Source: a virus. Taken from it: DNA of 37,368 bases. Positions 18,898 through 32,935 of this stretch are shown one piece after another; the first letter of the stretch is position 1; the number at the start of each line of letters is the position of its first letter. The notes below the pieces were generated by a model. It saw only the letters and a program-made list of their open reading frames with translations, did not search any database and had not been told where the DNA came from. Where the stretch lies: positions 1 through 37,368 of the IMG/VR virus record IMGVR_UViG_3300025131_000160. One strand, 5' to 3'. Position numbers and translations under genes: made by a program.

Positions 18898-19533
18898 TTA
18901 TATTATTTGATCTACTACACCTAAATCTAATGCTTGTTCAGAAGATAAATACATATCTGTTCTCATTTGATCTTTCCACCAAATAGCATCCTTTTTTGTT
19001 TTTTCTGCTAATAAATTATATACATCTTGTTCTACTTGTTTAACAAAATCTACTGTTGCTGTAACATCTCCTAATTTACCTGATATCATTGATGAGGCTT
19101 GATGAAACATTATAGTTGAATTTTTACTTACCATTCTAGTTCCAGTACCACATGTTAATATTACGGATGCGGCTGAAAAGGCTTTGCCTCTACATATTGT
19201 ATTTACTCTTACATCTAATGATTTTATATAATCTATGATACCCATCATTTCATGAATGTCGCCACCTGGGCTATTTATCATTAAATTAATAGGTGCTGTT
19301 GGTTCTCCTGTATATTCTTTTGATTGTCTATATTTTAATATACGTCTAATTCTAATCATTAAATCAAATAGTGTATGACCTTCTATTTCATCATTGAGAT
19401 AAATAACAGAATCATCTAATTCGATTTGATTAGCTAATATCTCATTTAGTTCTGTATATGGAGAATTTTCTGGCAATGTTACTTGTTCGGTGGCTGGTTG
19501 TGGCCTTGGTCTTTCATCATAAATATTACTCAT
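18898..19533 (-). CDS. ClpP-family serine protease (211 aa)
   Basis: The crotonase-like ClpP fold is clear: INLMINSPGGDIHEMMGIID (oxyanion region about 82-101), nucleophile Ser120 in RGKAFSAASVIL, His144 in STIMFHQASS, and Asp193 before MYLSSEQALDLGVVD. All three triad residues are in place and the length matches bacterial ClpP. No Clp ATPase is seen in the window, so it may act alone, work with host ClpX, or replace the host peptidase. Processing of capsid or internal proteins is another possibility, since ClpP-like folds serve as prohead proteases in some phages. It is 10 nt upstream of the HD gene in the same operon. Confidence 0.88.
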   Translation of the reverse strand: MSNIYDERPRPQPATEQVTLPENSPYTELNEILANQIELDDSVIYLNDEIEGHTLFDLMIRIRRILKYRQSKEYTGEPTAPINLMINSPGGDIHEMMGIIDYIKSLDVRVNTICRGKAFSAASVILTCGTGTRMVSKNSTIMFHQASSMISGKLGDVTATVDFVKQVEQDVYNLLAEKTKKDAIWWKDQMRTDMYLSSEQALDLGVVDQII

Positions 19534-22100: not shown

Positions 22101-22523
22101 TTACTTGATTGTAACTGTTTTTGGTTTACTATCTTCTGTTAGTGGTGCAAACAGATGTAATAAACCATTTGATAATTTAGCTTCTAATTGACCTAGGTCA
22201 AATCTTCTGCTAATTCTCCAACCGAAATTAAATGCTCTCTTAGCAATATTACGTTGGATATATTCATTGTCGTTAGAGCCGGTTTCTTTCTTGTACTCTA
22301 CACGTAGAATATCACCTTCAATTGTAAGGTCAATATCTTTTTTTGATAAACCTACACAAGCAATATCAATATTAAGACCTTCTTTGGCCTCATATATATC
22401 TACTGGATGGTTAACTCTGATTTGATTGAATGGAGCGAAATCTCCGTTATCTTTATCGAAAAAATTCCTAAACAGAATATCGAATGGCGATGTGCCGAAT
22501 GGTGTTAATGTTGTTGTTCCCAT
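22101..22523 (-). CDS. Small heat-shock protein, Hsp20 family (140 aa)
   Basis: An alpha-crystallin domain occupies about residues 38-140: VDIYEAKEGLNIDIACVGLS, KKDIDLTIEGDILRVEYKKE, then RAFNFGWRISRRFDLGQLEA and KLSNGLLHLFAPL, where the usual A.L.NGVL.. motif appears as AKLSNGLLHL. The N-terminal arm has the common SPFDILFRNFF-type start. The C-terminal KPKTVTIK supplies an I/V-x-I-like oligomerisation motif. Small heat-shock proteins of this kind are frequent in marine T4-like phages and may protect or assist folding of virion proteins. TTAAGGAGATTTATT precedes the ATG. Confidence 0.92.
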   Translation of the reverse strand: MGTTTLTPFGTSPFDILFRNFFDKDNGDFAPFNQIRVNHPVDIYEAKEGLNIDIACVGLSKKDIDLTIEGDILRVEYKKETGSNDNEYIQRNIAKRAFNFGWRISRRFDLGQLEAKLSNGLLHLFAPLTEDSKPKTVTIK

Positions 22524-25681: not shown

Positions 25682-26170
25682 TTATAAAATATTTTTTGGT
25701 GGCCATTCTCCTGGATCTACTTGCATACAAGTTAATCCTTCTTCTCTCCACATATCAACTACTTTTTGTCTATCATCAAATACTGCTACTAACTTATCTC
25801 TATCTTCAAATAAATCATCTAACCAATATTTTTTTAATTTACGATCATCCATAAATTTCCAAGGATGTGATGTTGGTCTCATTTTTAATATATGGTATGG
25901 AACATTATGTTTATTTAGCCACATCTTTGTAGTTAATTGAGTTCCTTTACATCTACCAGATAATATTGCAATCATATAACCTGCTTCGGCTAACGCTTGT
26001 GCTGTTTTAATAACTGGATGATTAGGTTTATCTAGTTTGATGTTTTCTGGGTTAAAGAATTTATCCCAATCTAATTTACCATTTTCTTTTTCTGAAACTT
26101 TTCTTCTTTCATCTATTAAGGCTAATGTGCCGTCTAGATCAAATATAAACCATTTATTCTCTGTTACCAT
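25682..26170 (-). CDS. Polynucleotide 3'-phosphatase, HAD family, PseT-like (162 aa)
   Basis: The protein matches the C-terminal phosphatase half of T4 polynucleotide kinase and lacks the kinase half. HAD motif I is FIFDLDGTLAL with Asp11 and Asp13, motif II is ILSGRCKGT (Ser71), and the motif IV region is VAVFDDRQKVVDMWREEG with LTCMQVDPGEW; T4 PseT has a very similar DDR..VV.MWR..G..C.QV..G. It probably removes 3'-phosphates from nucleic acid ends, in nick, tRNA or RNA repair, possibly with a separate ligase or kinase elsewhere in the genome. It is 2 nt after the 103-aa gene. Confidence 0.85.
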   Translation of the reverse strand: MVTENKWFIFDLDGTLALIDERRKVSEKENGKLDWDKFFNPENIKLDKPNHPVIKTAQALAEAGYMIAILSGRCKGTQLTTKMWLNKHNVPYHILKMRPTSHPWKFMDDRKLKKYWLDDLFEDRDKLVAVFDDRQKVVDMWREEGLTCMQVDPGEWPPKNIL

Positions 26171-26618: not shown

Positions 26619-26646
26619 AAATAGGGCACCCGAAGGCACCCTATTT
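26619..26646 (-). terminator. Hairpin with UUCG loop, probable terminator
   Basis: The minus strand forms AAATAGGGUGCC-UUCG-GGUGCCCTATTT, a 12-bp stem (two G-U pairs) closed by a UUCG tetraloop, 16 nt after the stop codon of the gene at 26662. The U-run after it is short (TATTTTATG). T4-type phages often use UUCG-capped hairpins as terminators or 3' stabilisers. It separates the membrane-protein gene from promoter copy 2. Confidence 0.75.
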
Positions 26647-26661
26647 AATATTCAAGCTAAA

Positions 26662-26886
26662 TTACTTCTTAACAAAGAATGATGTTAATAATACTAATAC
26701 AACTAATCCTACAAATCCACCTTCACCTAATGAAGTGATAAGTGCTGTTAGATTAGCTACAACATCCATTCCAAATACTGATCCGCCTGTTAAAACGTAC
26801 CATAAGATTGTCACTGGAAGAATGGCTAACAATACTGTTCCTAATCCTCCTACGAAATCTGTAATCATTTTAATTACGTTATTCAT
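26662..26886 (-). CDS. Small two-helix membrane protein (74 aa)
   Basis: There are two long hydrophobic segments (about 10-30: FVGGLGTVLLAILPVTILWY; about 54-72: GEGGFVGLVVLVLLTSFFVK) separated by a polar loop, with Lys at both ends. I recall closely similar small membrane proteins from marine T4-like phages, without a proven function. The size and topology would fit a holin, but no lysin gene is adjacent. GAGGAAAACAA precedes the ATG. It is an isolated unit ending in a strong hairpin, which suggests abundant or separately controlled expression. Confidence 0.7.
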   Translation of the reverse strand: MNNVIKMITDFVGGLGTVLLAILPVTILWYVLTGGSVFGMDVVANLTALITSLGEGGFVGLVVLVLLTSFFVKK

Positions 26887-27006
26887 TTGTTTTCCTCTTT
26901 TTTTGTAATACTTGTTTTACGGCATTATGGCCTAATTGATTTAGAGAGCTCATTTACTTTTTTGGAAAATAGACAGAATCTATCTTCGTGTATTATAAAC
27001 GATTGT

Positions 27007-27049
27007 GTCCTATAAATAGGACGGGTACTACATAGTAATTAAATACTAT
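27007..27049 (-). terminator. Two consecutive hairpins after the beta-barrel gene
   Basis: Directly after the TAA stop at 27050, the minus strand has ATAGTA-TTTAAT-TACTAT (27032-27049) and then GTCCTA-TTTA-TAGGAC (27007-27022). Neither is followed by a clear U-run, so they may be a terminator or 3' end protection. The rest of the gap to the next gene (26887-27006) shows nothing definite. Confidence 0.4.
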
Positions 27050-27481
27050 TTAGAATCGGTAAGCTAAGCCTAACTTAAACTCACCAGCTCTATCACCCTC
27101 TTCATCTTCTTTTAGGTTCATGCTGTAATTTGGTTCAACATACATACCTTTCCAAAGATTAAAAGAGTAACCTACACCTACAGAAAGATTGTCAAATGTT
27201 TCTGTTGTTGGTGCTGAAACTGAAATATATACATCTGTATTCCAGTTATAACGACCAAAAAGATCGTATTGAGATTCACCTAATGAATCTTCTCCTGCTG
27301 TAATGAACCCAACGGTCCATTTGTCATTTAACGTATATCCTAAACCTAGGTTATCAGTTAAACTTGACATTTCCCACTCAGCGCCTTCTTCAGCAGCTTG
27401 GTAAGTTGTTACTACCATAAACTGTGCAGATGCAAATAATGTGGAAAAAGCTAAAGCTAATGTTAAAATTAAATTTTTCAT
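27050..27481 (-). CDS. Outer-membrane beta-barrel protein with signal peptide (143 aa)
   Basis: A clear signal peptide, MKNLILTLALAFSTLFASAQ, is cut most likely between Ala19 and Gln20, as is common in Bacteroidetes secreted proteins. The mature part is made of alternating amphipathic strands with turns (LGLGYTLNDKWTVGFI, QYDLFGRYNWNTDVYISVS, NLSVGVGYSFNLW, GEFKLGLAYRF). It ends in an aromatic residue (Phe143), the usual outer-membrane barrel signal. About eight strands can be counted. It probably inserts in the host outer membrane, where it might block receptors against other phages. TTAAGGAGAATAAATTT precedes the ATG; it is a single-gene unit. Origin by transfer from a Bacteroidetes host is likely. 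Confidence 0.8.
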   Translation of the reverse strand: MKNLILTLALAFSTLFASAQFMVVTTYQAAEEGAEWEMSSLTDNLGLGYTLNDKWTVGFITAGEDSLGESQYDLFGRYNWNTDVYISVSAPTTETFDNLSVGVGYSFNLWKGMYVEPNYSMNLKEDEEGDRAGEFKLGLAYRF

Positions 27482-27629
27482 AAATTTATTCTCCTTAATT
27501 TGATTTTGGCCACTATTGGCTGTCTGTTCAAGGAGCCCTCTATTTAGTACGCCTCAATTGTAGCGTATTTTCTCCTTAATCATAATACTATTGTATAATA
27601 TATAAAATATTATTCAAAGTACCAAATGT

Positions 27630-28595: not shown

Positions 28596-28781
28596 TTATG
28601 ATCTTTTAGATTCTAATACTGATTGTTTTCTATAATCGGTTACTAATTTTTTTATTTCACCAATTGACTTTCTTGCTCTTGTTGCTGCTGCTTTATTACC
28701 TTTATCGGTAAATTTTCTATGATTTTCTTGAAACGTCTCCCAAAGGTCATTCAATGTATCATATAACTGAGTTGTACTCAT
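28596..28781 (-). CDS. Hc1-type histone H1-like protein (61 aa)
   Basis: Chlamydial Hc1 and its Bacteroidetes relatives compact DNA. This protein has the family core: an N-terminal helix (LYDTLNDLWETFQENHRKF), then DKGNKAAATRARKSIGEIKK (about 26-45) and a YRKQSVLESK end; Hc1 itself has EKGNKAAAQRVRTESIKLEK and YRKESIKAEK. The long Lys/Ala-rich tail of chlamydial Hc1 is absent, as in short Bacteroidetes versions. It may condense phage or host DNA. AATAGGAGAACAGTT precedes the ATG, and candidate late element D lies 23 nt upstream, so late expression and packaging are plausible. Confidence 0.8.
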   Translation of the reverse strand: MSTTQLYDTLNDLWETFQENHRKFTDKGNKAAATRARKSIGEIKKLVTDYRKQSVLESKRS

Positions 28782-32764: not shown

Positions 32765-32778
32765 TTATTTTCTCTTTG

Positions 32779-32852
32779 TGATCGCGATAGGATTCGAACC
32801 TATGACCGTCTGCTTAGAAGGCAGATGCTCTATCCAGCTGAGCTACGCGACC
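32779..32852 (-). tRNA. tRNA-Arg (anticodon UCU)
   Basis: All four arms can be drawn: acceptor GGTCGCG paired with CGCGATC, D arm with AGCTCAGCTGGATAGAGC, anticodon stem TCTGC-CTTCTAA-GCAGA with anticodon TCT, and T arm ATAGG-TTCGAAT-CCTAT. CCA is not encoded. It reads AGA codons, which are common in this AT-rich genome. Confidence 0.95.
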
Positions 32853-32863
32853 ATTTTTAGTAG

Positions 32864-32935
32864 TACCCCGACGGAGAATCGAACTCCGGTTACCAGGATG
32901 AAAACCTGGCGTCCTAACCACTAGACGACCGGGGC
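32864..32935 (-). tRNA. tRNA-Glu (anticodon UUC)
   Basis: Acceptor GCCCCGG pairs with TCGGGGT (with G-U pairs at both ends). The anticodon stem is CCAGG-TTTTCAT-CCTGG with anticodon TTC, and the T arm is CGGAG-TTCGATT-CTCCG. CCA is not encoded. It is 11 nt upstream of tRNA-Arg, presumably in one transcript. Confidence 0.95.

Follow-up and report, generated by a model that had tools for sequence, protein, structure and literature searches.

A predicted outer-membrane β-barrel with a host-style signal peptide, encoded beside a small membrane protein in an uncultured virus

Phage-borne and chromosomal barrels related to the locus

Phage-encoded outer-membrane proteins are already known. Lom of phage lambda is a phage-borne surface protein with the eight-stranded fold of the Ail/Lom/OmpX group, the Phage_OMP family (PF24653) contains marine barrels encoded by cyanophages, and many others are present in BFVD; the initial annotation of the locus studied here had correctly noted that some phages carry such proteins. 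A pair of adjacent phage genes whose products would enter the two membranes of the host is not described in the literature that we searched, an open-licence library outside which most subscription journals lie.

The locus belongs to a 37,368-nucleotide stretch of viral DNA (IMG/VR record IMGVR_UViG_3300025131_000160, positions 1 to 37,368), referred to below as the window. Its barrel has the predicted eight-stranded fold in common with the Ail/Lom/OmpX proteins, but none of the Pfam sequence models of that group matched it at E ≤ 1, and it differs from them in its short loops, in the presence of a partner gene for a predicted inner-membrane protein, and in being carried by a virus whose host is probably a member of the Bacteroidetes. 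Like PF24653, it is a predicted marine phage-encoded barrel; no match to this family was obtained at E ≤ 1, and two of the 26 relatives matched it weakly (best E 0.0022). The nearest Pfam family is PF13505 (OMP_b-brl), which resembles the window barrel in fold class and size. The score of the window protein against it, 25.6 bits, is below the cut-off of 28.7, while 11 of the 26 relatives matched at E ≤ 0.01 (best 1.2e-8).

Full-length homologues of the window barrel are encoded in Flavobacteriales chromosomes beside a Porin_4 protein (L028–L036 and L120–L151). Those from nine Flavobacteriales/Bacteroidetes MAG/SAG contigs (L028–L036) are 41–56% identical to the window protein, and a survey of 246 genomes from the order found homologues in 44. 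The chromosomal barrels have the same FASAQ leader and C-terminal signal as the viral one. They differ in their surroundings, being typically located directly downstream of a large Porin_4-type barrel gene and not beside a gene for a 74-aa protein. They also differ in translation signals: no Shine-Dalgarno sequence precedes the chromosomal copies inspected, whereas the window gene is preceded by AAGGAG (27491..27496, minus strand), the strong ribosome-binding site reported initially.

All viral members that we found come from uncultured viruses, as does the best BFVD match. Among 50,697 cultured-phage records, there was no relative of the window barrel, of the 74-aa protein, or of the barrels referred to below as the KGDWY and L021 types. 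The cultured relative of the virus, Flavobacterium phage immuto, has no recognisable copy of the barrel or of the 74-aa gene; positions 50001–60000 of its genome (with ~400 bases unread) contain annotated glycosylation-type and hypothetical genes only.

The barrel protein and its descent

The barrel gene occupies positions 27050..27481 (minus strand) and, based on its reading frame, Pfam comparisons, AlphaFold2 modeling, and relatives, codes for a precursor of 143 aa (mature protein, ~124 aa). The precursor begins with MKN, a short basic end, which is followed by a hydrophobic stretch and by FASA|Q; residues 1–19 (27425..27481, minus strand) constitute the predicted signal peptide, with cleavage at ASA|Q20. 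The FASAQ sequence is unvarying in an alignment of 26 members, and a corresponding site, with Gln after the cleavage point, was recognised by pattern in all 67 distinct phage barrels. Judged by the same kind of pattern, this is a Sec signal peptide with a signal peptidase I site and without a lipobox Cys. At the opposite end, the protein terminates in EFKLGLAYRF. The alternating residues F135, L137, L139, Y141, and F143 (27053..27079, minus strand) correspond to the C-terminal β-signal for outer-membrane insertion by BAM, complete with a terminal aromatic residue. The pattern recurs in 67/67 distinct phage relatives, although in a few of them (the L021–L024 type) the last residue is Leu rather than Phe.

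An AlphaFold2 model built from the 26-member alignment (mean pLDDT 77.4, pTM 0.67) consists of a signal helix and eight amphipathic strands, an even number, which are predicted to close into an up-and-down barrel. When strand positions were taken from this model, hydrophobic alternation within strands was 2.99, compared to 1.47 in shuffled sequences (p = 0.0002). Thus, the ASA|Q leader, the approximately eight amphipathic strands, and the C-terminal Phe that had been noticed in the initial annotation all held up, the last as a part of the β-signal. Foldseek comparisons of the model with the PDB were led by Ail, Opa60, and OmpA at E ~1e-3 (1.2e-3 for Ail, the top match). VIA-align Z scores were 11.4 for Opa60 and 10.7 for OmpA, and soluble avidin barrels scored 11.2. 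Since avidin barrels are equally close, the fold by itself is no proof of an outer-membrane protein. Unlike the fold, the C-terminal signal discriminates: of the 47 minus-strand open reading frames in the window, the barrel alone ends in the F-L-L-Y-F pattern, which is also found in none of the 414 open reading frames of immuto. A soluble avidin-like barrel, despite its near-equal match to the model, is ruled out by the signal peptide and the C-terminal insertion signal. Searches with the barrel against PHROGs and against PDB sequences produced no match. Sequence and model together support the prediction that the window gene codes for an outer-membrane β-barrel with a host-style signal peptide.

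According to the Bacteroidetes Q-rule, a Gln residue directly follows the signal peptidase I site and is later cyclised (PMC5837995). The signal peptide had been taken initially as a pointer to a Bacteroidetes host, and this inference is supported because relatives of the barrel reside in Flavobacteriales chromosomes and the window type branches inside them. In a tree of 78 barrels and 124 columns, whose fine branching is beyond its reach, barrels of the window type form a clade with host sequences (support 100/98) that is nested among further host sequences, and the proposed comparison with flavobacterial barrels thereby came out in favour of the pointer. The baseplate wedge protein encoded in the window is 41% identical to that of Flavobacterium phage immuto and 49% identical to that of a phage recorded from Microcystis. 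A Bacteroidetes host is thus supported for the window virus, short of proof for this contig.

Phage barrels fall into two types. A first search returned 25 full-length phage relatives of the window barrel. The window type is marked by FMVVTT; the other, marked by KGDWY, matches the profile of the FMVVTT type at ~1e-11 to 1e-20 and is set far apart in the tree, as a clade with a very long branch. The position of the window type points clearly to host descent; no host copy of the KGDWY type was traced.

The partner gene and organization of the pair

The barrel gene is followed by a gene (26662..26886, minus strand) for a protein of 74 aa that contains two hydrophobic segments, assigned as the partner of the barrel from its pairing, AlphaFold2 modeling, and host homologues. 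The initial annotation had overlooked this partner. The model (pLDDT 71) has helices at residues 2–32, 42–52, and 57–72, and the protein is predicted to reside in the inner membrane. The window copy matched only DUF3866 in Pfam (E 0.18), two host copies had no Pfam match, and there was no significant match to holins in PHROGs. A holin was considered and rejected as the identity of the partner, no known holin family having matched.

The 74-aa gene is located directly after the barrel gene in all 15 of the closest phage relatives. Pairing was examined in the best 80 of the 119 viral-contig relatives of the 74-aa protein. A barrel gene lies immediately beside the 74-aa gene, on the same strand, at 79 of these best 80 loci, upstream in 70 cases, downstream in nine, and elsewhere in none; the sole locus in the sample without an adjoining barrel is L083 (5001–5225). 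The sample contains 69 intact upstream pairs (the L099 locus is cut off), 54 of them distinct, and the pairing holds with both the FMVVTT and the KGDWY barrel types. The surroundings of the pair vary. At about 34 loci it is flanked by a conserved 270-aa gene and a baseplate-region gene, at about 12 it is near genes for the prohead protease gp21 (PF03420) and Gp23 (PF07068), and further loci are near Hsp20, while the pair in the window is near an Hc1 histone-like gene. It is difficult to see how the pair could stay intact, while surroundings and gene order change, unless the two genes share a function. Conversely, no 74-aa homologue was detectable for 10 of the 25 full-length barrel relatives from the first search, which indicates that the barrel can work without this partner. 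L019 contains a diverged look-alike of the 74-aa protein, equal in length.

Several other features of these loci can be mentioned. In L017 (5426–5566) and L018 (5426–5569), the position of the 74-aa partner after the barrel is taken by a membrane protein of 46–47 aa with a single helix. The appearance of the conserved 270-aa neighbour suggested a late sigma factor; as it had no match to any family, the name was dropped. In the window, the Hc1 histone H1-like protein of 61 aa (PF07432, 67.9 bits) is encoded at 28596–28781 (minus strand), and small Hc1-like proteins adjoin the barrel in L016, L018, and L020. The minus strand of the window also carries genes for a ClpP-type protease (18898–19533), an Hsp20 chaperone (22101–22523), and a PNKP-type phosphatase (25682–26170), and adjacent genes for tRNA-Arg (tct) and tRNA-Glu (ttc) (32778–32935).

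A profile of the 74-aa protein matched 62 of the 246 genomes of the order, where the genes usually occur as tandem pairs with no visible prophage around them. Tandem 74-aa genes in Flavobacteriales chromosomes are represented by L152–L161; the pair that was tested had no Pfam match. At the loci inspected, we take the gene on one side of the tandem to be SDR-like or of the trans-sulphuration type; in most cases, that on the other side is presumably polA. Barrel and 74-aa genes were both present in 38 genomes (Fisher p 5e-22, a statistic that ignores phylogeny). They occupy separate sites in host chromosomes, ~128 kb apart on one contig in genome G002, and from these comparisons the phage appears to join two genes that hosts keep apart.

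Transcription signals around the pair were also inspected. According to the initial annotation, the barrel gene has a transcript to itself, with two hairpins at the end. There are indeed hairpins behind its stop codon, three in number (27032–27049, 27007–27022, and 26965–26987; span 26965..27049, minus strand; z = −4.4), but they lack T-runs and are ruled out as terminators. They are kept in relative L001 and absent from other relatives. A T-tailed hairpin resembling a Rho-independent terminator (26619..26646, minus strand; z = −5.5) instead follows the partner gene, and its stem differs from that of L001 by paired changes on both sides. The barrel and partner genes are therefore probably bicistronic, forming what appears from the sequence to be one two-gene unit with a structured spacer. 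A 148-nt non-coding stretch precedes the barrel gene (27482..27629, minus strand) and is the same in L001. The identity covers ~285 bases of leader and barrel start (L001:4820–5100), while proteins neighbouring this stretch are 38–91% identical between the two viruses; it may reflect either recent exchange or constraint at the RNA level. A CTCCTT sequence in the leader, ~40–50 nt upstream of AAGGAG, can pair with it. A T4-type late promoter (TATAAATA) was sought before the barrel gene and not found, and occurrences of this motif show no excess on the coding strand.

Both genes of the pair are under purifying selection, with dN/dS values of 0.07–0.28 for the barrel and 0.08–0.23 for the 74-aa partner. 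Among close phages, conservation of the predicted barrel loops equals that of the strands, and the barrel surface does not look subject to diversifying selection. Phage loops also retain recognisable host sequence.

Possible roles of the pair in infection

The reading that we favour, while holding it tentatively, is that barrel and partner form a host-derived envelope cassette of two genes, with the barrel as its outer-membrane half, and that this cassette replaces or boosts host envelope proteins. The barrel would leave the cytoplasm by the host Sec pathway and be cut by signal peptidase I, the Gln thus exposed at its N-terminus would be cyclised like that of other Bacteroidetes exports, and BAM would insert it as a small eight-stranded barrel in the outer membrane, while the 74-aa partner would insert in the inner membrane. 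Both products are copies of proteins of marine Flavobacteriales, in which the two genes occupy separate places in the chromosome. By making them together, the phage would most likely replace or boost these envelope components at a time when the host's own expression is shut off, and envelope permeability or stability may be adjusted in this way until lysis. Since both host proteins are functionally uncharacterised, "replacement" names no biochemical activity. It also counts against this reading that neither the mature barrel (124 aa) nor the 74-aa protein has a domain long enough for contact across the periplasm. A broader proposal, to which we give somewhat less credence, is that the pair is a portable two-membrane module repeatedly kept by marine Bacteroidetes phages, that it reshapes the envelope, and that the host proteins share a pathway.

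The main alternative, superinfection exclusion, which the initial annotation had put forward beside altered permeability, is possible but rather unlikely. The barrel would displace or mask a receptor, perhaps the neighbouring porin, and the partner would block DNA entry. A pair placed in two membranes suits such a double block, a porin gene adjoins the host barrel gene, and annotated phage outer-membrane barrels are numerous. However, exclusion factors often diversify, while the loops of this barrel have no hypervariability and both genes are under purifying selection; the two proteins look like those of the host instead of changing them; and the location of many copies among virion genes suggests late expression. 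The host-like sequence of both proteins, the undiversified loops, and the pairing of two host genes indirectly favour a host-derived envelope cassette over exclusion.

We consider a role in lysis or release improbable. Here, the 74-aa protein would be holin-like or pore-forming, as the layout of its two hydrophobic segments might suggest, and the barrel would loosen the outer membrane late in infection; in L019 and L021–L025 the barrel indeed belongs to a region of lysis genes (Amidase_2 or Peptidase_M15 with GTA_holin_3TM). Against this proposal, no holin family matched the 74-aa protein, its gene is conserved in chromosomes, with tandem copies kept in hosts at sites without visible prophage, and L019 has a separate holin candidate beside its 74-aa look-alike. 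The frequent location of the pair among capsid and baseplate genes might suggest decoration of virions or vesicles, or a host gene carried as a passive passenger without benefit, but we regard both as very improbable, the former because a Sec signal peptide and an outer-membrane insertion signal are unsuited to a cytoplasmically assembled virion protein, and the latter in view of purifying selection and of linkage at 79 of the best 80 of 119 relatives.

For uncultured viruses, the Q-rule in a leader peptide offers a pointer to a Bacteroidetes host that can be read from sequence alone. From the near-perfect pairing in phages, one would expect two uncharacterised envelope proteins of flavobacteria to be functionally linked. 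If the proposed host-derived envelope cassette is real, host protein types added to both membranes would be little-studied auxiliary genes in ocean viruses.
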